Origin: Sporosalibacterium faouarense | GTDB taxonomy: Bacteria; Bacillota; Clostridia; Tissierellales; VENL01 | Direction: 5' to 3' | DNA length: 54,180 nucleotides | NCBI RefSeq assembly: GCF_016765695.1 | Contig: NZ_JAETGO010000027.1 | Span: 1 to 54,180 of the forward strand | In this document: positions 14,452 through 45,960 of the stretch, in pieces | Position numbering within the stretch: the first letter of the stretch is position 1 | How the letters are laid out: every line of letters starts with the position of its first letter | Made by a program: the position numbers and the translations under genes | Notes under the pieces: model-generated | Told to the model about the DNA's origin: nothing | The model's input: the letters and a program-made list of their open reading frames with translations, nothing else | Databases searched by the model: none

Positions 14452-14655
14452 AACAAAACAATCCTGAGATGTTCGTTAGCCTTGATAATTCAACCGACAT
14501 TGAATTATCGGGAACTCGGGTCCTTCAATGTATGTCATGCCTAATTAGGACTTCAGAAATTGAAGGCAGAGTACCCACCTGCTAAGAAGCGGGCGTGAAT
14601 TATAAGAGCGACGACATAACGGGGGTTTACCCTAAGCTTTAGCTTAGGGATTTTT
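14452..14655 (+). ncRNA. ssrS: 6S RNA
   Basis: No frame is open here, but the ends carry 6S landmarks: TCCTGAGATGTTCG in the 5' arm (compare CTCTGAGATGTTCG in E. coli 6S) and GAGCGACGACAT in the 3' arm, as in E. coli GCGACGACAC. The arms close on each other (AAAC...ATGT with ACAT...GGGTTT) around a large internal bubble with side hairpins (TTGATAATTCAA-type and CCTGCTAAGAAGCGGG). The RNA binds SigA-RNA polymerase as an open-promoter mimic and down-tunes housekeeping transcription in stationary phase. Promoter and terminator frame about 200 nt, the length of Firmicute 6S RNAs. The exact 3' end is uncertain. Confidence 0.87.
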
Positions 14656-14798: not shown

Positions 14799-16019
14799 AT
14801 GGAAGGGGCTCTTAAACATAATTTGTATTATGAGTTTAAAGATATTATTGATAATAGAAAAATAAAAACACTTTATCAGCCAATTGTTGGACTGAAAAGT
14901 GGGGATATATTAGGGTATGAAGCTTTAAGTAGAGGTCCCCAAAACTCTTACTATTTTAGCCCACTAAACCTTTTTAAATCTGCTAGAGAATATGATATGC
15001 TTTGGGATTTAGAGCTGGTTTGTAGACAAAAAGCATTAGAAAATAGTCAAGCAAGGGTAGGAGATAAAAAGCTTTTTATAAATATAGACCCTAATACTAT
15101 ACAAGATAAGAAATTTAAACAAGGATTTACAAAACTACTATTACAAGATTTCAATATAAATCCTTATGATATTATTTTTGAAATAAATGAAAATACTGCA
15201 ATTAGTGACTATAGGAAGCTTAGAGATGCATTAGATAATTATTCTGAACAAGGATATCAGATTGCTTTGGATGATGCTGGGTCAGGATATTCTGGACTAG
15301 TTTTATTAGCAGAGACACATCCAAATTTTATCAAAATAGACATGAGCTTAGTTAGAGATATAGATAAAAATAAATTTAAACAAGATTTAATGAGGACATT
15401 TTGCGAGTTTTCTAAAAATACAAGCATAAAGGTAATTGCTGAAGGAATAGAAACAGAAAATGAGTTAAAGACATTAATTGAACTAGGCGTAGAGTATGGA
15501 CAAGGATACCTTCTACAGGAGCCAAAAGAAGAAATTTTTAAGAGCATAGACTTTAGAAAACTAGAGTTAATAAGCGACTTAAATTTTAAAGGGACAACTT
15601 TAAAAGAGGGAAATTTAAACGACTATTGTATTGGTAATATGTCTCGAAAGGATACTCCAATAGTTAAAACATCAACGATAAAGGATGTAAATGAAATTTT
15701 TGTAAATCATCATACATTACAGGGACTAGTAGTGGTAGAGGATGATAAACCAATTGGATTAATAATGAGAAATAAGTTCTATTTTAGATTACTTAAAGAT
15801 GGATTTAAGGGTACAGAAGAAAAATATATAGAAGATATAATGTTGAAATTGCCCTTAACAGTTGATTATAGAGCTTCAATAAAGAAAGTAGTTGAATTAG
15901 CTATGTCAAGAAGAGAAGAAAGAACCTATGATTACGTAATTGTTTCCAAGGATAATGAATATCATGGGATTGTTCCGATACTCACTATCCTGGAGTCACT
16001 TAAAAATGTTAATAAATAA
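14799..16019 (+). CDS. c-di-GMP phosphodiesterase: EAL domain plus C-terminal CBS pair
   Basis: Hydrolyses cyclic di-GMP to pGpG. From ATG 14799 (SD AGGAGGG) it has 406 residues. The EAL domain spans about 10-245 with GYEALSRGP (E at about 42), NIDPN, FEINEN, LDDAGSGYSGL, FIKIDMSLV and AEGIETENE, so the metal-binding and catalytic set appears complete. The C-terminal 140 residues (TPIVKTSTIKDVNEIF, VEDDKPIGLIMRNKFY, YVIVSKDNEYHGIVPILTIL) form two CBS-like repeats, probable nucleotide sensors. No membrane segment. It probably opposes the GGDEF protein at 32291-37648. No c-di-GMP riboswitch is visible in its leader. Confidence 0.92.
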   Translation: MEGALKHNLYYEFKDIIDNRKIKTLYQPIVGLKSGDILGYEALSRGPQNSYYFSPLNLFKSAREYDMLWDLELVCRQKALENSQARVGDKKLFINIDPNTIQDKKFKQGFTKLLLQDFNINPYDIIFEINENTAISDYRKLRDALDNYSEQGYQIALDDAGSGYSGLVLLAETHPNFIKIDMSLVRDIDKNKFKQDLMRTFCEFSKNTSIKVIAEGIETENELKTLIELGVEYGQGYLLQEPKEEIFKSIDFRKLELISDLNFKGTTLKEGNLNDYCIGNMSRKDTPIVKTSTIKDVNEIFVNHHTLQGLVVVEDDKPIGLIMRNKFYFRLLKDGFKGTEEKYIEDIMLKLPLTVDYRASIKKVVELAMSRREERTYDYVIVSKDNEYHGIVPILTILESLKNVNK

Positions 16020-29027: not shown

Positions 29028-29918
29028 ATGAAAAAGATAAGAGTAATATATAATCCATCTTCAGGAACTCAGACTATTCAACGTAGACTAGATTTGATAT
29101 GCAAAATACTACTAGATAATGGATACATATTAGGTAAATTTGCAACAGAAAAGAAATATGATGCAATGAATGAAACCATAAGGACATGCAAGGAAGACTG
29201 GGATATAATTGTCGCTTGTGGAGGAGATGGAACAATTAATGAAGTAGCTAGTGGTATAGCTAAGAGTGAGAGAAAGATTCCGGTTGCTATATTAGCAGCT
29301 GGGACAGTAAATGACTTCGCAAATTCTTTAGGATTACCTAAAGATGCTAAAGAGTTTTGCAACATGATAATGAATGGGAAAACACTTGATGCTGATCTTG
29401 GAAAAATTAATGATAGCTATTTTGTTAATGTGGCTGCTGGAGGTCTGTTGACTAACATTGCCCATCAGGTTCCTAGTGAAGTGAAAACAGTTCTAGGAAG
29501 GATGGCATATTATATGGAAGGGTTAAAGGAAATACCGAGGCAAATGTTTAATGCATTTAAGGTAAATATTGAAAGTGAAGAATACTCCATAATGGGTGAA
29601 GAGATAGCTTTGTTTTTAATATCTAATAGCTCTTATATTGGCGGATTTAAAAAGCTAGCTCCGAAGGCAGATATAATGGATGGTAAACTTGATACTATCA
29701 TTATTAGAAAATCTGAAATTCAAGATATTATTACTATATTAATAGACTTAATAAAAGGCGAGCACATAAATCATCCAAAAGTTAAATATTTTAGGACTGA
29801 AAAGATTACTATTGATTGTGATAATCCAATAGATGTAGATATAGATGGAGAATATGGTGGTGAATTACCTGCAACTTTTAAAGTAGTACCAGGTTGTTTT
29901 AAAATATTTATAAAATAA
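29028..29918 (+). CDS. Diacylglycerol/lipid kinase (DagK/YegS family)
   Basis: 296 residues. Nucleotide-binding signature ACGGDGTINEVASGI (about 63-78) and AAGTVNDFANSLGLP are intact; the C-terminal half is the beta-sandwich lipid domain (YIGGFKKLAPKADIMDGKLD). Members phosphorylate diacylglycerol or related lipids at the membrane to recycle them to phosphatidate. ATG with SD TAGGAG. Monocistronic. Confidence 0.9.
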   Translation: MKKIRVIYNPSSGTQTIQRRLDLICKILLDNGYILGKFATEKKYDAMNETIRTCKEDWDIIVACGGDGTINEVASGIAKSERKIPVAILAAGTVNDFANSLGLPKDAKEFCNMIMNGKTLDADLGKINDSYFVNVAAGGLLTNIAHQVPSEVKTVLGRMAYYMEGLKEIPRQMFNAFKVNIESEEYSIMGEEIALFLISNSSYIGGFKKLAPKADIMDGKLDTIIIRKSEIQDIITILIDLIKGEHINHPKVKYFRTEKITIDCDNPIDVDIDGEYGGELPATFKVVPGCFKIFIK

Positions 29919-31385: not shown

Positions 31386-31612
31386 GCTGCTCCCACCTTT
31401 TACAAAAATTCTTCTTCGTAGAAATAATATTCTATAAAAGAAATCGAAAACCTTCTTTTATTGACAAAAATATGTGTACAAGTTCAATAATATGACCAGA
31501 GTACTATTTTTAAAATAATAATTTTCATAGAGTGGAAACTTAGAAGTGTTGCTAAGAAGTAAATAAAATGATAATATATTTAGTATACCGAAGTAAAATG
31601 GAGGTTCGAAAA

Positions 31613-32074
31613 TTGAAAAATATAGATGTTGGAGAAAGTGTAATCGGCATAGAGAGGTACTTAAGAAAGACTGATCATATTATAAGAAAAAAAGGAAGGG
31701 AAATACTGAAAGACTTTAATATAACGGGTCCGCAATTTATCGCATTGCAATGGCTAATAAGTGATGGAGACTTGACTATTGGAGAACTGAGTCAGAAGAT
31801 GAAATTAGCATGCAGTACCATAACAGATTTAATTGATAGAATGGAGAAAAACGAATTGGTCGTAAGAACCAAGGATAAGAAAGATAAAAGGGTCGTAAGA
31901 ATACAAGTTCTAAAGAAGGGACACGATGTAGTCGATAAGGTTCTAGATAAAAGAAGACTTTTCTTATCTGACAAGCTAAGAAATTTTAAAGAAGAGGATA
32001 AGACCTTTTTAATGAAAAGTCTAGAGTCTTTGTATTTAGCTATGAAAGGTGACAACCAAACAGAAGAGGAATAG
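31613..32074 (+). CDS. MarR-family transcriptional regulator
   Basis: 153 residues. The winged helix spans about 35-105 with LTIGELSQKMKLACSTITDL as recognition region and the wing RTKDKKDKRVVRIQVL. Flanking helices form the dimer. The TTG at 31613 is preferred: SD ATGGAGGT lies 7 bases upstream, while upstream in-frame ATGs lie in or before that SD. A consensus TTGACA is at 31461-31466. It is divergent from the M23-bactofilin pair and followed by the giant signalling gene; its target is unknown. Confidence 0.9.
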   Translation: MKNIDVGESVIGIERYLRKTDHIIRKKGREILKDFNITGPQFIALQWLISDGDLTIGELSQKMKLACSTITDLIDRMEKNELVVRTKDKKDKRVVRIQVLKKGHDVVDKVLDKRRLFLSDKLRNFKEEDKTFLMKSLESLYLAMKGDNQTEEE

Positions 32075-32240: not shown

Positions 32241-32290
32241 TTAGAGATGAGCAATATTAAAGTTTATTTTTTTTGAAGGAAGTGTTAAAC

Positions 32291-35200
32291 ATGCAATTAC
32301 TGAACAATAGATACAAAATTGAAGGTATTCATGTAGAAGAGACTAATGGTACTGTCTATAAGGTTATTGACTTATGGAGTGGCAATAAAAAAATATTACT
32401 AAAAATTTGTGAGAAAAATTTAGCTAATAAAAAGATTTTTGATTTTTTTTGTAATAGCTTTTTAAATCTTACAAATATAAAAAATAAATATCTTCTACAA
32501 AACGGCAAATTTGATATATTAAGTGTAGTTGATAATAAAAAGACTACTAGAAATCAATTCTATTACACTAAGGAATACGCCGATGGAAGTACCTTAATTA
32601 ATAGTTCTGGCAGCCTGTCCTTCGAAGAAATTTTAGATATTACAAGGCAAATATGTGATTTAGTTGACTATTTTCAGTTTAGAGGAATAACATATGACTT
32701 TTTGAATCCAAACAATATTTATTGTATAAGACAAAGTGACAATATCAATATTAAGGTCAAAGATATTGCATCTATTTACGAATTGAAAATAAGAGATGAG
32801 TATGGAGAAAATAGTCGTTCATTTATAGCTCCAGAGTTTTTTATGGGTAAAGAAAAGGAAAATTTACGAAGTGATATTTATTCCATAGGTATGATTCTTA
32901 GCTTTCTTTTAGATAGATTTATTAAGGAAAATCCTGACGAGATAATGAAAAAGGAACATAGTATAAGAATTATAAAAGATTTGATAAATAGGATGACCAG
33001 TAAAGATAGTAATAGTAGAGAAGCAAACTTGAGACTTATTATTGAGTCTATAAATAGCATTTCGCAAACCAATTATAATTTAGACTTTAAAAATGAAAGA
33101 AATCACTTGAATTTTTCTACTGAAATAATTGGAAGGGAAAAAGAGCTTAATGAAGTATTTAAAATAGATGAAGAATTTGAAAACAGAGTATATGAAAAAA
33201 AAGTTTTTTCGATACATGGTGAAGAAGGAGTTGGAAAAACTAGATTATTGAAAGAATTAGATTTCTTGTTAAGAATGAAGGGAAGATCTGTTTACTATAC
33301 AACAGTTACTGATGGCAATACAAGTCAGTTAGGTCCAATAAAGAAGATACTCAGACAGATGATTAAAAACTGTGATAGTGATTTAATTGATAAATATGGC
33401 TGTGAGCTAGTTAAGATAATACCAGAATTAAGTGCTGTTAATGATATTGCTCCTTCTTCAGCCTTAAGTGGAGAGCGTGAGATGCTAAGATTATATGATA
33501 GGATATCTAATTTTATCGTAGACTTTATTAAGGGTAGACCGACTTATATCATTCTTGATGAATTTCATAATAGTGATATTGATACTTTGAGACTGATCAA
33601 TTATTTCATTAGGAACAAGGTGAATTCCTCACTATTGTTTATCATTTCATATAATGAAGCATTGATAGAAAATGATAAAGAGCTAGATAGCATTATAAAT
33701 AAATGGTCTAGCTACCATAAGGTTGAAGAGATTGACCTATTGAAATTTAATCTTCAAGAAACAGCACTTATGATTAAAAATATTTTAGGTCTTAGAAACA
33801 TGCCTGTGAAATTAGGCGCTAGACTTATGAATGAAACAGCAGGCAATCCTAGACATATTGAAGAGGTTATAAAGAATTTCCATGCAACAGGAGAGCTTTT
33901 TATAGATGAAATAGGTAATTGGGATTTAAAAACAGAAATATATTCTAATATATACATTCCATCTAACATTAATGAGGCTATAAAAAGACAAATAGATTTA
34001 TTAGAAAATGAAATGTATGAAGTAGCTAAAATTATTTCACTATTCAGAACTTCAGTTTCTAAGGGAATATTATCAAATATCTTAGGTTTGGATATTGAAG
34101 ACCTTGATAACATTATTGATAAGCTTCTAGCAATTAAGATAATTGATGAAAAAGTTGAAGACTGGGGTTATACCTATGATTTTTATAATCTTCAAACTAA
34201 GAAATATATTTATCATAGAATAGAGAAAAAAGAGAAGCAAGAGTTACATGAATTAATTTCTGAAGTTCTTGAAGATGTTTATAGTGATGGGAAAAGAAGA
34301 AATATTGACGAATTAGTATATCATTTGACCTTATCGAACCAAACGGAAAAGGCAATAAGGTATACAGTTGATTTAGCAAAAAGGATGGAAGGCTTTGTTG
34401 GAAATGTTCAAGCCATATCTCTATGGCAAAAAGCAGATGAGCTATTAAAGGATAGAATAGATATAAATAAGCTAGAAGTTCTAGTAAACTTGGGTAGATT
34501 GTATTCTTTCCAAGGACTTAATGATAAGGCTTTAGATCAGCTTTTTAAGGCTCTTGAAGGAGCAATATTATTAGGTGAGGAGAGGTTTATTGTTATTGCT
34601 AGAAATTCCATTGCTGATATATATCTTTGGAGAAATGCACTGGTAGAGGCAGAAGAACATATAAGTCAGGCGCAGGATTTAGCAAAAAGAGTTAATTATG
34701 TTGAGGGATATATCGAAGGTGCAAGATTAATGAATAAGCTTTACTTCCAGAAAAATGAATATAGTAAAATTTTAAATACAACTAATAAATATATAGATAC
34801 TGCGAAACAGGAAAAGCTTTATACACATGTAGCCCATTTCTATAATCATTTAGGGGTTTATTATATGTTCCATTATAATATTGAAAAAGCAAGGAAATGT
34901 TTTGCATCAAGTATAGAGTATTTCAATAAAGCTCAGGATTTCATTGAATCAACAAAAGCTATAAATAACATAGGAGTAATTTATGCAGATCATTATGATG
35001 ATTTAGATAAGTCAATGGAATACTTTGAAAAAGGGCTAAATGTTAGTCAAAAGTATAATTCATTTGAAAATGAAATAGTATTTTTTATTAATATTGGAGA
35101 AACGTATATACAGTTAAATCAATATGAAAAAGCGAAAGAATATATAAATTCTGCTAGGAAACTAGCTACAGAAATTCAGGATGAGATAGACTTATTCTTA

Positions 35201-37648
35201 ATAAATATTGATTTAGGCAGAATTTATTTAAATATGGGAGATTTTGAAAAGGCATATAAAATATACAAGACTGTTAAGGAACAGTTTTACAAGCAGCCTG
35301 AACAGGGACAAAATATAGGAGAGTATTACGATTTTCTAAGTGAATTCAATATCTATATAGGACAATGGGACGAGGCGTTAGATGCTTGTCAAAAATCTAT
35401 TGAGAATAACAATAAGCTTAAACTCACATTATTAGCAGAAAGTAGAATGTTAGTTATCAAGTATATCAAAGGAAATGTGTTAGATAAAAAATCTATAAAT
35501 GAGTTGAGGGCTAGTCTTGAGCATAGTGATTTGAAAAGTATAAGAAGGTTTGCTTTGCTTGAGTTTGCAAGGATATCAATAGATTCAGGAGATATTGAAT
35601 ATGCAAGACAAATCTTAAATGAAGATGAGAAAATATTATCTGAATTTACAACAGATTACTTAAATATAAAAAGAAACTTATTATTGACATACTTTGTTGA
35701 AGACCCAATTAGTGAATTACTTAATATAGAAAAAAATGAGAAAAATAAATATTTAGACTGTGACATGATTATTAACAGAAGACTAGGGATTGAGTATTAT
35801 AAAAAGAAAAACTATTATCAGTCCATATATTATTTTGTTATTACTTTAGATTTAATGCATAGAGCTATTAAGAAAATCTCTAGTCGAGATATGGCTATGC
35901 TATTATTAAAGGCTAATAATATAGATAGACTCTTAGAGAAGATTAATTTCATAATGGGTTCTCTAGCTGTAGAGAGTTATGAAAATGATATAACTGTTGA
36001 TATTTTCTTTGAAGAACACTTTGACTTAGCTGACTTTAGAGAATTGTTTAATAAAAAAGAGTTTTATTATGCTGTATTTGCTCATTTCAATGAAACTACA
36101 TTAGATAATATTGACGATTTAGATGAACTAGTTAAGCATTTTACAGGTAGTTATGAAGATAACCTAGATTTAATCTTAAAATTTGCGATGAAAGAAACCT
36201 TTGCAAGTAGGGGATTTATTTGTATCTATGATAGAGAAAAAGATAAACTGAAGATTCTAAAATCCTCAACAGGAAATTATGATATGACGATTATAAATCA
36301 AGTTATATCAAGGGTTAAGCAAAAAGAATCAGGATTATTAATTCAAAGTACTGCAAAATTTCATAAAGAATACGTATATTTGGAAGAAGATATTAAGTCT
36401 TTGATTTGTGTACCTATATATAAGAAGAAAAGAAACAGAGAAAGCTCTATGTCATTAGATGATGATAGACGTAAAGGCTGTGATAATTTCAATAGTGGTG
36501 AGATTGTTGGCTACATCTATTTAGACTCAGACCGCTTATTTAACAGATTTGATCAGGAGAGGTTTGAACTTATAGAAGCTCTGTCTTATTTATCATTCAT
36601 TAATATAGATAACTATAATTTAAAGAAGACTTCTTCAATAGATATGCTTACAGGAACTTATACTAGAAAATATTTCGATATATTATCAGGAGAAATATTA
36701 AAGAAAAATAAAAAAGCAGGATTGAGCCTTGCAGTGATTATGATAGATATTGATAAATTTAAAGTAGTAAATGATACATTTGGTCATAGAACAGGAGATG
36801 AAGTACTAAGTAAAGTCGGAGATATTATTTTAGACAATGTGAGAGATACAGATATAGTAGGAAGATATGGGGGAGAAGAATTTATTATAATGCTTCCTAA
36901 TACAAGTAAAGAAGATAGTATAAAGGTAGCTGAGAAGATTAGACAAAAAATTGAAAAGGCGCAATTATTAGGTGAGGAGCATCCATTAACAATTAGTTTA
37001 GGTATATCTATTTTACCTAAACATGGACAGTATAAAGAAGAATTAATAGAAAAAGCTGACCAAGCTCTTTATCATGCAAAACAAAACGGTAGAAATAACT
37101 TTGTTATGTGGAGTAGTGATATTGGAGGATCAAGAAAGAGATTAGATAGGTTGGTAGGAATTGTATCAGGGAATACTGTTCAAGACCAAAGAAATATATT
37201 AGCCATGGTAGAAATTATTGACCTTATTAAAGAAAAGGCATGTAAAAAAGATAAAATCTACAGGTTCTTAGGTAGGCTTATAGAAATAGTTGAGGGTAAA
37301 CAAGGGGCTTTATTTATAATAGAAGAAGATAAAAACATTAGTGAAGTATTTGCCCGGGAAATATTTAAAGAAGAATGGATTAATGAATTTAGATATAATG
37401 GAGAGGTCATCAATAGAGTCGTTAACAAAGGTGAAGGTGAATTTCTCATTGATTGGGAGGATGTTGAAAATATTAACGTATTAACAGGAACTCCTAATTG
37501 GCAATCTATAATTGTTACTCCTCTAATAGACCAAGGTCGAACTAAAGGAGTACTATTGATTTCTGTTCCCATTAAAGAAAAAGAGTTCGACTATAACACA
37601 TACAACTTTGTAAGAACAGTTGGAGATATTATGGCGGCTATTATATAA
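32291..37648 (+). CDS. Giant sensor: degenerate protein kinase, AAA-type ATPase, TPR, GAF, diguanylate cyclase, GAF
   Basis: 1,785 residues from ATG 32291 (the TTG at 32273 precedes the SD AAGGAAGTG). Domains in order: protein-kinase fold (about 1-265) with ILLKI Lys, an APE-type motif (IAPEFFMG) and RSDIYSIGMIL, but with YDFLNPNN in place of HRDxKPxN and DIA in place of DFG, so the catalytic Asp is lost; ATPase with HGEEGVGKTRLL Walker A (about 310) and YIILDEFHN Walker B (about 418), of the type found in PknK/MalT-like STAND regulators; TPR-like helices (about 700-1140); GAF (about 1290-1435); GGDEF cyclase with GRYGGEEF (about 1527) and inhibitory site RDTD five residues ahead; second GAF (about 1630-1785). 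No membrane segment. Likely makes c-di-GMP under control of the large sensory front end. Monocistronic. Confidence 0.9.
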   Translation: MQLLNNRYKIEGIHVEETNGTVYKVIDLWSGNKKILLKICEKNLANKKIFDFFCNSFLNLTNIKNKYLLQNGKFDILSVVDNKKTTRNQFYYTKEYADGSTLINSSGSLSFEEILDITRQICDLVDYFQFRGITYDFLNPNNIYCIRQSDNINIKVKDIASIYELKIRDEYGENSRSFIAPEFFMGKEKENLRSDIYSIGMILSFLLDRFIKENPDEIMKKEHSIRIIKDLINRMTSKDSNSREANLRLIIESINSISQTNYNLDFKNERNHLNFSTEIIGREKELNEVFKIDEEFENRVYEKKVFSIHGEEGVGKTRLLKELDFLLRMKGRSVYYTTVTDGNTSQLGPIKKILRQMIKNCDSDLIDKYGCELVKIIPELSAVNDIAPSSALSGEREMLRLYDRISNFIVDFIKGRPTYIILDEFHNSDIDTLRLINYFIRNKVNSSLLFIISYNEALIENDKELDSIINKWSSYHKVEEIDLLKFNLQETALMIKNILGLRNMPVKLGARLMNETAGNPRHIEEVIKNFHATGELFIDEIGNWDLKTEIYSNIYIPSNINEAIKRQIDLLENEMYEVAKIISLFRTSVSKGILSNILGLDIEDLDNIIDKLLAIKIIDEKVEDWGYTYDFYNLQTKKYIYHRIEKKEKQELHELISEVLEDVYSDGKRRNIDELVYHLTLSNQTEKAIRYTVDLAKRMEGFVGNVQAISLWQKADELLKDRIDINKLEVLVNLGRLYSFQGLNDKALDQLFKALEGAILLGEERFIVIARNSIADIYLWRNALVEAEEHISQAQDLAKRVNYVEGYIEGARLMNKLYFQKNEYSKILNTTNKYIDTAKQEKLYTHVAHFYNHLGVYYMFHYNIEKARKCFASSIEYFNKAQDFIESTKAINNIGVIYADHYDDLDKSMEYFEKGLNVSQKYNSFENEIVFFINIGETYIQLNQYEKAKEYINSARKLATEIQDEIDLFLINIDLGRIYLNMGDFEKAYKIYKTVKEQFYKQPEQGQNIGEYYDFLSEFNIYIGQWDEALDACQKSIENNNKLKLTLLAESRMLVIKYIKGNVLDKKSINELRASLEHSDLKSIRRFALLEFARISIDSGDIEYARQILNEDEKILSEFTTDYLNIKRNLLLTYFVEDPISELLNIEKNEKNKYLDCDMIINRRLGIEYYKKKNYYQSIYYFVITLDLMHRAIKKISSRDMAMLLLKANNIDRLLEKINFIMGSLAVESYENDITVDIFFEEHFDLADFRELFNKKEFYYAVFAHFNETTLDNIDDLDELVKHFTGSYEDNLDLILKFAMKETFASRGFICIYDREKDKLKILKSSTGNYDMTIINQVISRVKQKESGLLIQSTAKFHKEYVYLEEDIKSLICVPIYKKKRNRESSMSLDDDRRKGCDNFNSGEIVGYIYLDSDRLFNRFDQERFELIEALSYLSFINIDNYNLKKTSSIDMLTGTYTRKYFDILSGEILKKNKKAGLSLAVIMIDIDKFKVVNDTFGHRTGDEVLSKVGDIILDNVRDTDIVGRYGGEEFIIMLPNTSKEDSIKVAEKIRQKIEKAQLLGEEHPLTISLGISILPKHGQYKEELIEKADQALYHAKQNGRNNFVMWSSDIGGSRKRLDRLVGIVSGNTVQDQRNILAMVEIIDLIKEKACKKDKIYRFLGRLIEIVEGKQGALFIIEEDKNISEVFAREIFKEEWINEFRYNGEVINRVVNKGEGEFLIDWEDVENINVLTGTPNWQSIIVTPLIDQGRTKGVLLISVPIKEKEFDYNTYNFVRTVGDIMAAII

Positions 37649-37761
37649 ATGATAGTCGCATTTCTATATCTAATAAAATTATTGGATTTTGTCCTCAAAA
37701 ATTGGGAATATGTATTATAATAGGATATAAAAGAAATTATAAAATATAAGGTGGTGATAAT

Positions 37762-38769
37762 ATGACTGCAACTATTAAAGACGTAGCGAAATCAGCTGGT
37801 GTTTCCATTTCAACAGTGTCAAGGGTAATCAATAATTCAAAGCCAGTAAGTCCAGAGATTAAAAGAAAAGTTTTAGAAGTTATCAAGGAGTTAAATTATA
37901 GACCTAATGAAATAGCTAGAACACTGGTTACGAAAAAATCTTTTTTAATTGGAGTAATAGTTACAGACATTGGCAACTCAGATGTTACAGAAATGGTAAG
38001 AGGAATAGAGGAAATCGGGAAAATGTACGGCTATGATATTTTACTATGTAGTACATATGGAGATAAAAAGATGGAAGAGAGATATATGCATCTTTTAAAG
38101 ATGAAACAGGTAGAGGGAATAATACTTATTTCAAATGATCCAAATGAAGATATAGATAATCTCTTGACTGAACATGATATTCCATTTGTTTGTTTAAACA
38201 GGTTCTTTAATATAAGAAATCATTCTACTGTGTCTATTGATAATTTTGAAGCTACATATGAAATGACTAAATATCTGTTTGAGCTAAATCATCAAAAGGT
38301 AAAATACATAATGCATAAAGAGAGCAGTGATAGTGATGATGAATCCGTTGAGAGAATAAAATTTAATGGTTATAAGAAAGCCGTAGAAGAATATAGTAGT
38401 GTAATTGATGTAGCATATGCTAAAGGTAGAGAAATAAAGGATGGATATGAGGTGGCTATATCGTGTGATTTTAATGAGGTTACAGCAGTGTTTTGTAGCA
38501 GTGATAAACTTGCAATCGGTGTTATGAATTATTTCTATGATAATGGAATAAAAATTCCTGATGATATATCAGTTTCAGGGTATGGAGATATTAATCTAGC
38601 ATCTATTTTTAGACCTAAACTATCAACTGTTAGAGAACCTTTCTATGATATTGGAGCAGTTGCTATAAGAAGAATAATCAAAGAATTAAAGGGGGAAGAA
38701 ATTACGAATAAAGATATTGTATTACCTCATAAAGTTTTATCAAGGGAAAGTTGCAGGAAAAGAAAATAG
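37762..38769 (+). CDS. LacI-family transcriptional regulator
   Basis: 335 residues. N-terminal helix-turn-helix and hinge: TIKDVAKSAGVSISTVSRVI, NYRPNEIARTL. The rest is a periplasmic-binding-protein-like ligand domain (FLIGVIVTDIGNSDVTEM, GIILISNDP, SVSGYGDINLASIFRPKLST). It normally represses a sugar or nucleoside operon, but no such genes adjoin. SD AAGGTGGTGATAAT directly before ATG. It follows the giant sensor gene by 113 bases with no clear terminator between. Confidence 0.92.
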   Translation: MTATIKDVAKSAGVSISTVSRVINNSKPVSPEIKRKVLEVIKELNYRPNEIARTLVTKKSFLIGVIVTDIGNSDVTEMVRGIEEIGKMYGYDILLCSTYGDKKMEERYMHLLKMKQVEGIILISNDPNEDIDNLLTEHDIPFVCLNRFFNIRNHSTVSIDNFEATYEMTKYLFELNHQKVKYIMHKESSDSDDESVERIKFNGYKKAVEEYSSVIDVAYAKGREIKDGYEVAISCDFNEVTAVFCSSDKLAIGVMNYFYDNGIKIPDDISVSGYGDINLASIFRPKLSTVREPFYDIGAVAIRRIIKELKGEEITNKDIVLPHKVLSRESCRKRK

Positions 38770-39946: not shown

Positions 39947-41473
39947 ATGAATAAAGTAATACTTGATGGTAATAGTTTAACAATACAAGACGTAATAAAT
40001 GTTGCTAGAAATAACTACACTGTTGAATTAACAGATGCTGCAGTAGAAAAAGTCAATAAATCAAGAAAGCTTGTAGATAGATTTGTTGATAGTGAAAAGG
40101 TAGTATACGGTATTACAACTGGATTTGGAAAATTTAGTGATGTAGTTATTTCTAAGGAAGAAGCTGAGCAGCTTCAAACTAATTTGATTACAAGTCACTC
40201 TTGTGGGGTTGGAGAACAACTAGATGAGGAAATTGTTAGAGCAGTAATGCTATTGAGAGCAAATGCTCTTGCAAAGGGTTTTTCAGGGATTAGACTTTCA
40301 ACTCTGAAAAAGCTTATTGAGATGGTTAATAAAGGTGTTCATCCAATTATTCCTGAAAAGGGTTCATTGGGATCCAGTGGAGATCTTGCACCTCTTTCTC
40401 ATATGGTACTGGTGTTATTGGGAGAAGGAGAAGCAATATATAAAGGAGAAAGATTAAGTGGTAAGAAGGCTATGGAAGCTGCGGGAATAGATACCATTAG
40501 ACTTACATCTAAAGAAGGATTGGCTTTAATAAATGGTACTCAGGTTATGACTGCTATTGGTGCCTTAACTATATATGATTCTATAAATATTTCAAAAATG
40601 GCTGATATTGCAGCAGGATTAACTATGGAGGCTTTAAATGGTATAGTTACTGCTTTTGATGAAAAGGTTCATAGTGTTAGACCTCATAATGGACAAATGA
40701 ATACAGCAAAAAATATTCTAAGCATTTTGAATGGAAGTGAAATGACTTCTGAGCAAGGTGAGATAAGAGTACAGGATGCTTACACACTTAGATGTATCCC
40801 TCAAATCCATGGAGCAAGTAAAGATGCTATTGATTATGTGATTGAAAAGATAAATATAGAGATTAACTCTGCCACTGATAATCCACTTATATTTGAAGAG
40901 GTTGAAGAAGTTATATCTGGTGGTAATTTCCATGGTCAGCCAATGGCATTAAGCTTTGACTTTTTAAGTATAGCATTAGCTGAGCTAGGCAATGTTTCTG
41001 AGAGAAGATTAGAGAGATTAGTAAATCCTGCTTTAAGTAACCTACCTGCTTTTCTAGTTGAAAAGGGAGGTTTGAATTCAGGTTTTATGATTGTACAATA
41101 TTCAGCTGCTTCACTTGTATCTGAAAATAAAGTTTTATCCCATCCTTCAAGTGTTGATTCCATACCATCCTCAGCAAATCAAGAGGACCATGTTTCTATG
41201 GGAACTATTGGAGCTAGAAAGGCAAGAGAAATACTAGGGAATGTAAGAAAGGTTTTAGCTATGGAAATTCTAGGGGCATGCCAAGCTATAGACTTGAGAG
41301 GTAAAAAGCAATTAGGTGCAGGTACTAGTATAGCCTATAAAATTATAAGGGAAAATACTGATAAAATTGTAGATGATAAAATAATGTATAAAGAGATAAA
41401 TAAATGTGAAGATTTAATTAAATCTAATGAGATTGTGGCTGAAGTAGAAAAAGCCATTGGTAACTTGTTATAG
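39947..41473 (+). CDS. hutH: Histidine ammonia-lyase
   Basis: First step of histidine breakdown: L-histidine to urocanate and ammonia. 508 residues, normal length. YGITTGFGKFSDVVI (about 54-68), the MIO loop EKGSLGSSGDLAPLSH (about 138-152) and late QEDHVSMG are typical. Odd point: the self-cyclising triad that makes the MIO cofactor, normally Ala-Ser-Gly, reads Ser143-Ser144-Gly145. ATG with SD AGAAGGGATG. Leads the hutH-hutU-ftcD-hutI operon. Confidence 0.95.
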   Translation: MNKVILDGNSLTIQDVINVARNNYTVELTDAAVEKVNKSRKLVDRFVDSEKVVYGITTGFGKFSDVVISKEEAEQLQTNLITSHSCGVGEQLDEEIVRAVMLLRANALAKGFSGIRLSTLKKLIEMVNKGVHPIIPEKGSLGSSGDLAPLSHMVLVLLGEGEAIYKGERLSGKKAMEAAGIDTIRLTSKEGLALINGTQVMTAIGALTIYDSINISKMADIAAGLTMEALNGIVTAFDEKVHSVRPHNGQMNTAKNILSILNGSEMTSEQGEIRVQDAYTLRCIPQIHGASKDAIDYVIEKINIEINSATDNPLIFEEVEEVISGGNFHGQPMALSFDFLSIALAELGNVSERRLERLVNPALSNLPAFLVEKGGLNSGFMIVQYSAASLVSENKVLSHPSSVDSIPSSANQEDHVSMGTIGARKAREILGNVRKVLAMEILGACQAIDLRGKKQLGAGTSIAYKIIRENTDKIVDDKIMYKEINKCEDLIKSNEIVAEVEKAIGNLL

Positions 41474-41499
41474 TTTTATTAAGTGCGGAAGTTTCATAT

Positions 41500-41536
41500 A
41501 GAAATATATTTAAGATGTAAATATGTAATTTCCTCA
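41500..41536 (+). repeat. Degenerate dispersed repeat, copy C
   Basis: AGAAATATATTTAAGATG followed by TAAATATGTAATTTCCTCA, in the gap between hutH and hutU; similar to 8022-8060. Confidence 0.35.
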
Positions 41537-41572
41537 AGTTTCAAAATCCATTAATATGAAAGGAGAGTTTTT

Positions 41573-43603
41573 ATGATTAACAATGTTGACGTTTCACAAG
41601 CAATGAAAATTAAATTAGACAATACTTTGCCTAAAATGCCTGAATTTGTTGAGGGGATTAGAAGGGCACCAAAGAGAGAATTCAGACTGAATAAACATCA
41701 AACTGAGCTTGCCTTAAAAAATGCGTTGAGATATATACCTGAAGAATTACATGAAGAGTTAGCACCAGAGTTTTTGGAAGAACTACTTACAAAGGGAAGA
41801 ATCTATGGATATAGATTTAGACCTGAAGGAAATATAAAGGCTAAATCAATTGATGATTACAAGGGTAATTGTATTCAAGGTAAAGCATTCCAAGTAATGA
41901 TTGATAATAACTTAGATTTTGATATTTCCCTATATCCCTATGAACTTGTTACCTATGGGGAGACTGGACAGGTGTGCCAAAACTGGATGCAGTATAGATT
42001 AATAAAGAAATATTTGGAGGTATTAACTGATGAGCAGACATTAGTTATTGCTTCTGGACATCCATTAGGATTATTTAAATCTAGACCGGAAGCACCTAGA
42101 GTAATAATAACTAATGCTCTAATGATAGGAGCCTTTGACAATCAAGATTTCTGGCATAATGCCCAAGCTATGGGAGTTGCTAACTATGGTCAAATGACAG
42201 CAGGTGGATGGATGTATATAGGTCCTCAAGGTATTGTACATGGAACCTTTAATACAATCCTTAATGCTGGTAGAATGAAGCTTGGAGTTCCAGAGGATGG
42301 AGATTTAAGAGGACATTTATTTGTAAGTTCAGGACTAGGTGGAATGAGTGGAGCTCAGCCTAAAGCAGCAGAGATAGCAAATGGTGTGGCTATAGTTGCT
42401 GAAGTAGATTATTCAAGAATAGTTACTAGACATGAACAAGGCTGGGTAGGCGAAATAGCTAAGAGTCCTAAGGAAGCCTTTGATTTGGCCCATAAGTATA
42501 TGGAGAAAAAAGAGCCATTATCAATCGCATTTCATGGAAATATTATAGAATTATTGGAATATGCAGTGGAGAACGACGTTCATATAGAGCTATTATCAGA
42601 CCAAACATCTTGCCATGTACCTTATGATGGAGGATATTGCCCAGAAGGTTTATCATTTGATGAAAGAACAGAGCTATTGAAAAATGATAAAGCAAAGTTC
42701 AAGAAGTTAGTCGATGAATCCCTGCGCAAGCACTATGATTTAATTAAGAAATTAGTTGATAGAGGTACTTACTTCTTTGATTATGGTAACAGCTTTATGA
42801 AAGCAGTATATGATGCAGGAGTTAAAGAGATTGCTAAAAATGGTGTAGATGAAAGTGAAGGCTTTGTATTTCCGTCTTATGTGGAGGATATAATGGGACC
42901 TATGCTTTTTGATTATGGATATGGACCATTTAGATGGGTTTGCTTAAGTGGTAAGCATGATGACTTATTAAAAACAGATAAAGCTGCAATGGATATTATT
43001 GATCCAAATAGAAGAGGACAAGACAGAGATAACTATGTATGGATAAAGGATGCAGATAATAACAAGCTTGTTGTAGGAACAGAAGCTAGAATTCTTTATC
43101 AAGATGCATTGGGAAGAAGGGATATAGCCCTTAAATTTAATGAGATGGTTAGAAATGGTGAAGTAGGACCTATCATGCTTGGAAGGGATCATCATGATAC
43201 AGGGGGTACAGATTCACCATTTAGAGAAACAGCTAACATTAAAGATGGAAGTAATATAATGGCTGATATGGCAACACAATGCTTTGCAGGTAATGCAGCT
43301 AGGGGTATGAGTTTAATAGCCCTTCACAATGGTGGTGGAGTTGGTATTGGTAAGTCAATTAATGGTGGATTTGGTTTAGTGCTTGATGGAAGTAAAGAAG
43401 TTGATGAAATAATCAAATCATCTATCCCATGGGATGTTATGGGAGGAGTAGCAAGAAGAGCTTGGGCTAGAAATGAAAATTCCATAGAAACATCTATTGA
43501 ATACAATAAAATCAATGATGGAAAGGACCATATTACATTACCGTATATTCCTAAAAAAGGGTTAGTAGAAAATTTAGTAGAAAAGGCTTTGAAAAACAAC
43601 TAA
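41573..43603 (+). CDS. hutU: Urocanate hydratase, long form
   Basis: Second step: urocanate to imidazolonepropionate, using tightly bound NAD as electrophile. Family landmarks: YETGQVCQNW-like GETGQVCQNWMQY, ASGHPLGLF, VTGGWMYIGPQG-like TAGGWMYIGPQGIVHGT, GLGGMSGAQPKAA and DQTSCHVPYDGGYCP (catalytic Cys region), RDHHDTGGTDSPFRET and NGGGVGIG. 676 residues, longer than the roughly 550-560 of B. subtilis or Pseudomonas enzymes and like the long form of animals and some anaerobes. ATG with SD AAAGGAGAG. Confidence 0.95.
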   Translation: MINNVDVSQAMKIKLDNTLPKMPEFVEGIRRAPKREFRLNKHQTELALKNALRYIPEELHEELAPEFLEELLTKGRIYGYRFRPEGNIKAKSIDDYKGNCIQGKAFQVMIDNNLDFDISLYPYELVTYGETGQVCQNWMQYRLIKKYLEVLTDEQTLVIASGHPLGLFKSRPEAPRVIITNALMIGAFDNQDFWHNAQAMGVANYGQMTAGGWMYIGPQGIVHGTFNTILNAGRMKLGVPEDGDLRGHLFVSSGLGGMSGAQPKAAEIANGVAIVAEVDYSRIVTRHEQGWVGEIAKSPKEAFDLAHKYMEKKEPLSIAFHGNIIELLEYAVENDVHIELLSDQTSCHVPYDGGYCPEGLSFDERTELLKNDKAKFKKLVDESLRKHYDLIKKLVDRGTYFFDYGNSFMKAVYDAGVKEIAKNGVDESEGFVFPSYVEDIMGPMLFDYGYGPFRWVCLSGKHDDLLKTDKAAMDIIDPNRRGQDRDNYVWIKDADNNKLVVGTEARILYQDALGRRDIALKFNEMVRNGEVGPIMLGRDHHDTGGTDSPFRETANIKDGSNIMADMATQCFAGNAARGMSLIALHNGGGVGIGKSINGGFGLVLDGSKEVDEIIKSSIPWDVMGGVARRAWARNENSIETSIEYNKINDGKDHITLPYIPKKGLVENLVEKALKNN

Positions 43604-43646
43604 GTAGTTTATTGAAGCTTTAGTCTTAGTAATTTGCATATAATAA

Positions 43647-43688
43647 GTGAAGAATTAATTTAAAAGAATTGATTCTTCACATTCTTTT
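43647..43688 (+). terminator. Hairpin between hutU and ftcD
   Basis: GTGAAGAATTAATT (43647-43660) pairs with AATTGATTCTTCAC (43667-43680) with one wobble. The tail ATTCTTTT is only moderately T-rich, so it may be a partial terminator or mRNA stabiliser inside the operon. Confidence 0.55.
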
Positions 43689-43779
43689 GAATTACATTAA
43701 AAAAAGAACTATATAGTTTTAAGCTAAGATAATTTCAATGTTTCAATATTCTAGAGAGACAAAATAAGGAGGAATAAAA

Positions 43780-44676
43780 ATGGCAAAGATAGTACAATGT
43801 GTACCTAACTTTAGTGAAGGTAGAGATAAAGATATTATTGAGAAGATAGTTGAAGAGGTAAGAAAAGTAGAGGGAACTAAGTTATTAGACTATGCACCTG
43901 ACAAAGACCATAACAGATGCGTTGTTACCTTTATAGGTGATCCTAGTGCAGTTAAGGAAGCAGCTTTTAATTTATGTAAGAAAGCATCTGAGCTTATTGA
44001 TATGTCAAAGCACTCAGGAGAGCATCCAAGAATGGGAGCAACAGACGTTATACCTCTTATTCCTATATCAGAAGTTACTATGGATGAGTGTATAGATATG
44101 TCTAAAGAATTGGGTGAAAAAATAGGTAATGAATTAGGTATTTCAGTATTCTTATATGAGAAATCTGCTTCGGCAACCCATAGATCAAATTTAGCAAAAG
44201 TTAGAAAAGGCCAATATGAGGGTATGAATGAAAAGATGAAGGAAGAAATGTGGAAACCAGACTTTGGTCCAATTGAATTAAATACAAAATCAGGAGTTAC
44301 TGCTGTTGGAGCTAGAATGCCGTTAGTAGCTTTTAATGTGAATTTAGATACTAATGACCTTAAAATAGCAAATAAAATTGCTAGAGGTATTAGAGGAAGC
44401 AGTGGAGGACTAAAATATTGTAAAGCAATAGGTATAGAGATTAAGGAAAGAGATATAGTACAAGTATCTATGAATATGGTTGACTACACAAAAACTCCTT
44501 TATTTAGAGTATTTGATTTAATTGAAAGAGAAGCTAATAGATATGGAGTAAATGTAATAGGTAGTGAAATAATAGGACTTCTTCCTACAGCTGCATTAAT
44601 TAATTGTGCAGATTACTACCTAAAGCTTGAAGATTTCTCAGATGAACAATTGCTTGAAAAAAGAATTTATGAATAG
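43780..44676 (+). CDS. ftcD: Glutamate formimidoyltransferase
   Basis: Moves the formimino group of N-formimino-glutamate to tetrahydrofolate, releasing glutamate. 298 residues: only the two formiminotransferase subdomains (VPNFSEGRDKDI, SKHSGEHPRMGATDVIP with the active His, PLVAFNVNLDT, GSEIIGLLP). The cyclodeaminase domain found in animal FTCD is absent and no stand-alone fchA gene is visible nearby. ATG with SD AAGGAGG; hutI starts 9 bases after its stop. Confidence 0.94.
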   Translation: MAKIVQCVPNFSEGRDKDIIEKIVEEVRKVEGTKLLDYAPDKDHNRCVVTFIGDPSAVKEAAFNLCKKASELIDMSKHSGEHPRMGATDVIPLIPISEVTMDECIDMSKELGEKIGNELGISVFLYEKSASATHRSNLAKVRKGQYEGMNEKMKEEMWKPDFGPIELNTKSGVTAVGARMPLVAFNVNLDTNDLKIANKIARGIRGSSGGLKYCKAIGIEIKERDIVQVSMNMVDYTKTPLFRVFDLIEREANRYGVNVIGSEIIGLLPTAALINCADYYLKLEDFSDEQLLEKRIYE

Positions 44677-44685
44677 GAGGATTCT

Positions 44686-45960
44686 ATGATAGCTGATATA
44701 GTAGTTAAAAATATTTCTCAGCTAATAACTCTAGAAGGAGAAAATAGACCTAGAGTTGGTAAGGAAATGATGGAAATAGGCTTGATAGAAAATGGTATAT
44801 TAGCAATAAAAGATGGAGTAATAAAATACGTAGGTCAAGGAGAACTTCCATCGAATATACAAATGGATAACGATACACAAATAATTGATGGAAAAGGTAA
44901 AACAGTTACTCCAGGCTTAGTAGATCCCCATACTCATTTGGTTCATGGAGGATCTAGAGAGAACGAATTGGATATGAAATTAAAGGGAGCAAAGTATTTA
45001 GATATTCTAAAGGCCGGCGGTGGAATACACAGTACAGTTAAATCTACTAAAGGTGCTAGCTTTGAAGAGTTATATAAAAAGGCAGAAAAGAGCCTAAATA
45101 CTATGCTAGAATTTGGTATGACAACTGTAGAAGCAAAAAGTGGGTATGGATTAGATACAGAAACGGAATTAAAACAGCTAAGGGTAGCAAAAAAATTAAA
45201 TGAAAATCATCCTGCTGATATAGTTTCAACTTTTTTGGGGGCCCATGCAATTCCAACAGAATATAAAGGAAATGTTGATGAATTTGTTGATATAGTTGTT
45301 AATGACATGATGCCTAAGGTTCAAGAGGAAAAGCTTGCTGACTTTTGTGATGTTTTCTGTGAAGAGGGAGTTTTCACTGTAGAACAAACGAAAAAAATTC
45401 TAAATGCAGCTAAAAAATATGGTATGAAGTCAAAATTACATGCCGATGAAATTGAGCCATTAGGAGGAGCAGAATTATCAGCAGATGTAGAAGCAATCTC
45501 TGCTGACCATCTAGTAGCAGCTAGCGAAAAGGGTATGGAGATGATGGCAGAAAAAGGAGTAATTGCTGATTTACTACCTGGAACATCATTTAATCTTGGA
45601 ATGGGTAAATTTGCTAATGCTAGAAGAATGATAGAGCTAGGAGTTCCTGTGGCGTTGTCTACGGACTATAATCCAGGTAGCTGCCCTACAGAAAACATAC
45701 AATTCATAATGACTTTGGCATCCTTGAGAATGAAAATGACACCAGAAGAGGTAATTACAGCTGTAACAATAAATAGTGCTTGCTCAATTGGAAGACAAGA
45801 GGAAATCGGAAGCATAGCTGTAGGCAAAAAAGCAGATTTAGCTATATTTGATTCTCCTAATATTAGTTATATTATTTATCACTTTGGAATTAATCATATT
45901 GACAAAGTAATTAAAAATGGTCAACTTGTTGTTGACAATGGGAAAATTATAAATGTATAA
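44686..45960 (+). CDS. hutI: Imidazolonepropionase
   Basis: Third step of the pathway: opens 4-imidazolone-5-propionate to N-formimino-glutamate, the substrate of FtcD. 424-residue amidohydrolase with metal ligands DPHTHLVHGGSRENE, KLHADEIEPLGGAELS and LSTDYNPGSCPTENIQF. SD TAGGAGG overlaps the ftcD end, so translation is probably coupled. No hutG or hutF exists here, so the route goes through folate, typical of Clostridia. Confidence 0.96.
   Translation: MIADIVVKNISQLITLEGENRPRVGKEMMEIGLIENGILAIKDGVIKYVGQGELPSNIQMDNDTQIIDGKGKTVTPGLVDPHTHLVHGGSRENELDMKLKGAKYLDILKAGGGIHSTVKSTKGASFEELYKKAEKSLNTMLEFGMTTVEAKSGYGLDTETELKQLRVAKKLNENHPADIVSTFLGAHAIPTEYKGNVDEFVDIVVNDMMPKVQEEKLADFCDVFCEEGVFTVEQTKKILNAAKKYGMKSKLHADEIEPLGGAELSADVEAISADHLVAASEKGMEMMAEKGVIADLLPGTSFNLGMGKFANARRMIELGVPVALSTDYNPGSCPTENIQFIMTLASLRMKMTPEEVITAVTINSACSIGRQEEIGSIAVGKKADLAIFDSPNISYIIYHFGINHIDKVIKNGQLVVDNGKIINV

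Follow-up and report, generated by a model that had tools for sequence, protein, structure and literature searches.

A kinase-like domain lacking the catalytic triad at the head of a giant predicted STAND-type ATPase, TPR, GAF and GGDEF protein of Sporosalibacterium faouarense and related bacteria

The giant gene, its architecture and its surroundings

The window, that is, the whole stretch of 54,180 nucleotides of Sporosalibacterium faouarense DNA analysed here, carries on its forward strand a single giant gene that lies between genes for a MarR-family and a LacI-family regulator (Table 1). The sequence-only reading of this DNA had described one gene of about 1,785 codons starting at ATG 32291, and the intact frame and the AAGGAAG box upstream agree with it. 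The mechanical open reading frame begins at TTG 32273, which abuts this box; ATG 32291 was preferred because the box sits 8 nt before it. Two terminator-like hairpins were found in the region (mean of 1.1 in shuffled sequences), and 47 promoter-like sites between positions 31950 and 37800 (37.6, sd 6.5, in shuffles).

Table 1. Features of the giant gene and its direct neighbours (window coordinates; residues are those of the giant protein)
Feature	Position	Strand	Basis or remark
MarR-family regulator	31568..32074	+	lies upstream; conserved in much of the order
Ribosome-binding site AAGGAAG	32276..32282	+	8 nt ahead of ATG 32291, read by eye
Giant gene, 1,785 codons + stop	32291..37648	+	ATG 32291, stop 37648, frame uninterrupted
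Pseudokinase domain (predicted), residues 1-270	32291..33100	+	Pfam Pkinase; 64-member alignment
Pseudokinase landmarks			K38, YDF 135-137, N142, DIA 158-160, APE 180-182, DIYSIG 195-200
AAA_16 P-loop ATPase, residues 279-451	33125..33643	+	Walker A GEEGVGKT 310-317; Walker B Asp 423, Glu 424
Post-ATPase region, residues 461-700	33671..34390	+	position and conservation; STAND subdomain site by inference
TPR superhelix, residues ~701-1150	34391..35740	+	Pfam TPRs
GAF 1 (putative), residues ~1286-1440, divergent	36146..36610	+	hhalign to GAF 2; PDE2A match
GGDEF diguanylate cyclase (predicted), residues 1449-1603	36635..37099	+	GGEEF 1527-1531, inhibitory RDTD 1518-1521
Conserved linker GGDEF-GAF 2, residues 1606-1640	37106..37210	+	83% and 74% identical to two nearest orthologues
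GAF 2 (putative), residues ~1641-1785	37211..37645	+	Pfam GAF_2 (weak); profile matches
Terminator-like hairpin, 3' end of giant gene	37634..37659	+	consensus match only
LacI-family, CcpA-like regulator	37762..38769	+	directly downstream, conserved neighbour in the order

Pfam and profile searches bore out the order of segments that had been proposed (kinase-like, AAA_16, TPR, GAF, GGDEF, GAF). A Pfam scan of the whole protein gave AAA_16 at residues 279-451 (E 6e-12), TPRs, and GGDEF at residues 1449-1603 (E 4e-45), while Pkinase is absent among the best 25 of the 28 families listed. With NCBIfam, residues 2-203 resemble a Ser/Thr kinase model and residues 273-719, the ATPase part, a kinase/cyclase fusion model, both far under the cut-off. 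A search of contigs from named genomes with the full protein returned one relative, matching in the GGDEF part only.

Of 120 genomes of the order, one of them the window's own, 55 gave a match. Four of these (G065, G066, G090 and G103) match in the ATPase/TPR part only and were left out, so that 51 of the 120 genomes hold a member. The member is a nearly full-length frame in 45 of the 51 and is split or cut at contig ends in G067, G076, G080, G085, G092 and G105; the 45, plus a second copy in G002, make up the order alignment (n = 46). Wider searches, in which relatives with other outputs also count, gave at least one match at E <= 1e-10 in 45 of 391 genomes of the class and 19 of 398 of the phylum, and the addition of 18 class and phylum members, hand-picked as long frames, brought the alignment to 64. 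Median identity between the window protein and the 45 other order members is highest in GGDEF (54%) and in the linker that joins it to GAF 2 (51%), followed by GAF 2 (43%), the ATPase (41%), the post-ATPase region (40%), GAF 1 (36%), the pseudokinase (32%), the TPRs (31%) and residues 1151-1285 (21%).

The surroundings were compared by hand counts over 51 order loci, 45 of them with enough downstream sequence. A LacI homologue follows on the same strand in 39 of these 45 (exceptions L044-L047, L054 and L085); a MarR homologue stands within 900 nt upstream in 35 of the 51, and a homologue of the lipid kinase at window position 29028 within 2,500 nt in 36 of the 51, upstream sequence being short or missing in some loci. 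This synteny of the order may reflect shared ancestry as much as function. Among the 18 class and phylum members, a MarR homologue was found in one (L139) and a LacI gene beside the giant gene in none, so any nutritional link drawn from the LacI neighbour belongs to the order. The LacI gene of the window is the only match in its genome to the ccpA model, at 258.7 bits, below the cut-off of 442. Further downstream, hutH, hutU, ftcD and hutI (histidine utilisation) lie in a row at 39947-45960, and in L044, L045 and L046, where LacI was not detected, a homologue of the histidine ammonia-lyase at 39947 comes just after the giant gene.

As to c-di-GMP, the genome gives 20 matches to GGDEF, of which two fall in one broken stretch, 6 to EAL and 2 to PilZ, together with 4 c-di-GMP-I riboswitches above gathering score. 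In the window itself an EAL domain gene is found at 14844-15524, just after a 6S RNA (14458-14629), the sole match there in a search that gave no c-di-GMP riboswitch above gathering score.

A kinase-like domain without the catalytic triad

Taken alone, residues 1-275 of the window protein pass the Pfam cut-off for Pkinase (39.3 bits against 31.7), and the same family matches all 46 order sequences at E <= 0.01. Alignment with MELK sets YDFLNPNN on HRDLKPEN and DIA on DFG, as the motifs had been read before. The β3 Lys (K38), the catalytic-loop Asn (N142) and the DFG Asp (D158) are kept, and the HRD catalytic Asp (replaced by Phe), the DFG Gly, the glycine loop and the αC Glu are lost. The domain had been called a degenerate kinase, and the description fits these four losses but not the DFG Asp, which is still there. 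The combination expected of an active Ser/Thr kinase (β3 Lys, HRD Asp and DFG Asp) is incomplete in this protein, and realignment to an intact HRD/DFG pair could be ruled out, the nearest acid, D136, being Lys in 35 of the 64 members. K38, N142 and D158 may still allow the window protein to bind nucleotide, although this would not be a general feature of the family: all three are present in 25 of 64 members, the window protein among them. Not all kinases of this genome are degenerate, because it also encodes a canonical one with HRDIKPHN and DFG (L187). AlphaFold, run on the single sequence, gave a pLDDT of 36 for residues 1-280 and of 33 for residues 1279-1785.

None of the 64 aligned members, whether from the order, the class or the phylum, has the triad of β3 Lys, HRD Asp and DFG Asp. 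Position 137, that of the HRD Asp, is occupied by Tyr (15 members), His (15), Phe (8), Asn (6), Leu (5), Ser (3), Asp (3) and others. The three members with Asp are L043, L153 and L175, none of which has the rest of the triad complete: L043 (YVDFKADN) keeps the Asp and the Lys but has Ser in place of the DFG Asp, and in L153 and L175 both the β3 Lys and the DFG Asp are missing, so that each was discarded as an intact kinase. The αC position is Glu in 11 of 64 members, and the glycine loop is not conserved among the 46 of the order. Residues that shape the kinase fold are kept, with G132 in 62 of the 64, the APE Glu (E182) and D195 in 55 each and G200 in 57. The earlier claim of a pseudokinase is therefore strongly supported by sequence criteria, and with the triad absent from all 64 it holds for the family at large. 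The gene is found again in many related bacteria, so that the kinase domain, dead by its sequence, looks like a part that has been kept rather than one that is decaying. We found no earlier report of this family-wide loss of kinase catalysis in the open-licence PMC literature.

Predicted cyclase, GAF domains, ATPase and relatives with other outputs

The GGDEF segment of the window protein has the motifs of a diguanylate cyclase, GGEEF together with the metal-binding Asp D1486, and its RDTD is an RxxD site five residues ahead of GGEEF, the arrangement associated with product inhibition. GG(E/D)E is present in 64 of 64 members, followed by Phe in 60, Ile in 2, Tyr in 1 and Leu in 1. In all 46 order members D1486, both Gly and the last Glu of GGEE are invariant, with a single Glu-to-Asp change at the remaining position. 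The RxxD site is found in 59 of 64 members and lost in L054, L151, L153, L154 and L175. It is by these motifs that the proposal of an active, feedback-inhibited cyclase is supported.

Residues 1275-1446 of the window protein, which cover GAF 1, match no Pfam family at E <= 0.01, and PF01590 (GAF) is found over this region in 2 of 46 order sequences. The profile of GAF 1 aligns with that of GAF 2 (hhalign, 88.9%), and its best match among solved structures is PDE2A (E 7e-4). GAF 2 gives a weak Pfam match at residues 1671-1785 of the window protein (GAF_2, E 1e-4, below its cut-off), and GAF_2 is found over the C-terminal region in 24 of 45 members (E <= 0.01). The best solved match of the GAF 2 profile is 3ksf, an uncharacterised protein of 160 residues that presumably has a GAF fold (E 8e-4), and the next is PDE6 (E 0.004). 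A GAF placed after the GGDEF had been called unusual; it is no peculiarity of the window protein, the region being present in 63 of 64 members, and in the one that lacks it, L052, the frame ends early, 122 bases before the contig end. With the GAF 2 profile, matches at E <= 1e-8 came from 36 of the 391 genomes of the class, the strong ones mostly in frames of about 1,800 aa. About a dozen matches fall in frames shorter than 600 aa (e.g. G225, 52 aa; G331, 51 aa; G399, 297 aa), which are possibly contig cuts or tandem copies. In class genomes of group f39 (e.g. G225, G350 and G433) the family is often represented by cut frames near 1,100 aa in length, and the contigs that carry them also have short GAF 2 matches, a pattern that looks like tandem copies breaking the assemblies.

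The ATPase has a P-loop with Walker A and Walker B, above the cut-off for AAA_16, followed by TPRs, which is the layout of a STAND NTPase, and we infer from it a STAND-type assignment for the ATPase and the region behind it. Walker A GK(T/S) is kept in 61 of 64 members and the Walker B Asp in 56 (the first acid is other than Asp in 8); 26 members have Asn in place of the second Walker B acid. An ATP-driven switch had been proposed; nucleotide binding is backed by the Walker A counts, but hydrolysis is less so, and because both Walker B acids vary, a cycle of ATP hydrolysis cannot be taken for granted.

Relatives in the same phylum share the front end, as judged by the family profile, and the last 480 residues were scanned in 20 of them. 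These end in a histidine kinase in eight (L146, L155, L157, L158 and L161-L164), in a LuxR-type HTH in nine (L165-L169 and L171-L174), in an AraC-type HTH in one (L170) and in TPRs only in two (L176 and L177). The kinase part is incomplete or absent in L146, L166, L170, L172, L176 and L177. Of the relatives with other outputs that could be aligned over the kinase, 8 of 17 keep the triad and nine lose it, with the N-lobe missing from the aligned sequence in two of the nine (L166 and L172).

A tree built by a quick method from the ATPase region, with 86 rows of which several are long-branched or odd in composition, sets the 65 rows that bear GGDEF on one side of a branch with an SH-aLRT of 97. 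For this to indicate a single origin of the GGDEF fusions, the root would have to fall within the remaining 21 rows. L156 (G435, minus strand) falls among those 21 by a kinase-ATPase frame of 948 aa, and beyond a run of N and short frames that strand also carries a 703-aa frame that matches the family profile from TPR to GGDEF (RYGGDEI). The kinase part of L156 keeps HRD and has Asn at the β3 Lys and DFG Asp positions, so that it too is without the triad. L156 may be a split system or an assembly gap, one gene or two. At another locus, L147 (G269), two full-length family copies lie near each other on one strand, both with GGEEI and one with a divergent Walker A region, CPQGTGKS. The gene is in two frames in L061 (G080) and in three in L049 (G085), by decay or assembly error.

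A possible one-component receptor and its known counterparts

The reading that we consider probable, though by no means assured, is that of a soluble (cytosolic) one-component receptor acting in c-di-GMP signalling, in which the pseudokinase, the TPRs and the GAFs would detect a ligand or partner, with a nucleotide switch setting the activity of the cyclase. The parts, their catalytic losses and their conservation are read from the sequence; the coupling of front end to cyclase is deduced from them. The pseudokinase would no longer phosphorylate anything and, with the TPR superhelix, would offer docking or ligand-binding surfaces. Binding there would free the neighbouring STAND-like ATPase, which would take up ATP and open or oligomerise; with ligand bound by the flanking GAF domains and the ATPase open, two GGDEF domains would pair and make c-di-GMP, until the accumulating product shut the pair off through the RxxD site. 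The conserved CcpA-like neighbour would suggest a nutritional signal, and the c-di-GMP-I riboswitches and PilZ proteins of the same genome could read the product.

A more extended version adds a history, and we put it forward as tentative and rather doubtful. An ancestral kinase-ATPase-TPR front end would have gained, once, a diguanylate cyclase that replaced a histidine-kinase or transcriptional output; it would also have acquired the second GAF and given up kinase catalysis. The pseudokinase would then have become an allosteric input gating the STAND ATPase and, through it, the synthesis of c-di-GMP, and the CcpA-like neighbour would be a tie to carbon status. This single-origin reading is weakened by L156, where a GGDEF frame lies near a kinase-ATPase frame from the other side of the tree.

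Two other views of the kinase-like domain have to be set against the receptor reading. It might be a decaying passenger without function, and this would agree with its place among the less conserved segments of the protein, with the erosion of its motifs, including APE and D195, in some distant members (L152-L154 and L175), and with the loss of the triad in relatives with other outputs as well. But the pseudokinase is about as conserved as the TPRs and GAF 1, its structural residues are kept in 84-97% of the 64 members, it is recognised as Pkinase throughout the order alignment, and the only order members whose match is without it are G085, at a contig end, and G080, a split gene with the kinase in the next frame; we hold decay to be unlikely. 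Alternatively, the domain could still be an enzyme with unusual chemistry, as an HRD-Asp-less kinase or by some other nucleotidyl transfer. Some eukaryotic kinases without the HRD Asp retain weak activity, and K38, N142 and D158 persist in the window protein and two dozen others. Against this, position 137 is varied, the αC Glu is infrequent, the glycine loop is unconserved and no other conserved acid stands near the site, D136 being mostly Lys, which makes an unusual enzyme the least probable of the alternatives.

At the other end of the protein, the GGDEF domain could serve mainly as a receptor of c-di-GMP or GTP, with the ATPase/TPR part or the MarR and LacI neighbours as the outputs. GGDEF domains can act as receptors, the RxxD site is intact in the window protein, and across the order the gene keeps its place beside the genes of two transcription factors. 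However, the catalytic positions of the domain are invariant in the 46 order sequences save for the single Glu-to-Asp change, and the five members that lose RxxD keep GGEE, the opposite of what is expected of a pure c-di-GMP receptor. We therefore regard this role as quite improbable, and the cyclase of the one-component reading remains the output that we prefer.

If that reading is true, c-di-GMP is regulated here by a protein kinase fold that has no catalysis left and acts as a sensor instead of by phosphorylation. The gene usually occurs once per genome across the order and is found more widely in the phylum, and its single polypeptide lets a pseudokinase, a STAND-like switch and a cyclase be studied together. 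In the open-licence PMC literature we found nothing in print on a pseudokinase controlling a bacterial second-messenger cyclase, and no paper on the function of any family member. The nearest idea, in a survey by Krupa and Srinivasan from 2005, is the kinase-like domain of eukaryotic guanylate cyclases, which is without catalytic residues (PMC1262709).

The same survey lists a 1,826-aa protein of Clostridium thermocellum ATCC 27405 as "Kinase + 6 TPR repeats + GGDEF" and classes it as a Ser/Thr kinase, one of the largest, even though its methods excluded sequences lacking the catalytic Asp (PMC1262709). The frame of L142 is 1,826 aa from the aligned Met, and the C. thermocellum protein is probably this orthologue. 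Its named parts come in the same order as in the window protein, whereas the survey passages on it name no ATPase or GAF (PMC1262709). Unlike the Ser/Thr kinase label, L142 has a degenerate HRD region (LKNLDHKS) and a degenerate DFG region (IGMPG), and if the pseudokinase reading is true, a protein listed as a Ser/Thr kinase since 2005 is not one. The sequence-only reading had named an architecture already characterised as one thing that would speak against it, and this applies in part: the domain order had been listed in print, but no characterisation was seen in the survey passages on it (PMC1262709). The cyanobacterial dual kinases of the HstK/cbSTKIII type are likewise large proteins that unite a kinase, a GAF and a signalling output, but their output is a histidine kinase instead of a GGDEF, and all cbSTKIII members are called KD kinases, hence with the catalytic Asp kept (PMC2176072). 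With a GGDEF output and the HRD Asp lost, the window protein falls outside the HstK type.

The fungal CHK1-type histidine kinases, which form group X, also carry a Ser/Thr-kinase-like domain and a GAF ahead of the output, as in the window protein; to our knowledge, they are eukaryotic histidine kinases with no GGDEF. In vivo effects are reported for CHK1 from which the kinase-like domain and the GAF domains have been deleted (PMC9069115). Among the relatives described above, five with LuxR-type outputs match the Pfam family TPR_CHK1 weakly, one of them above the cut-off.
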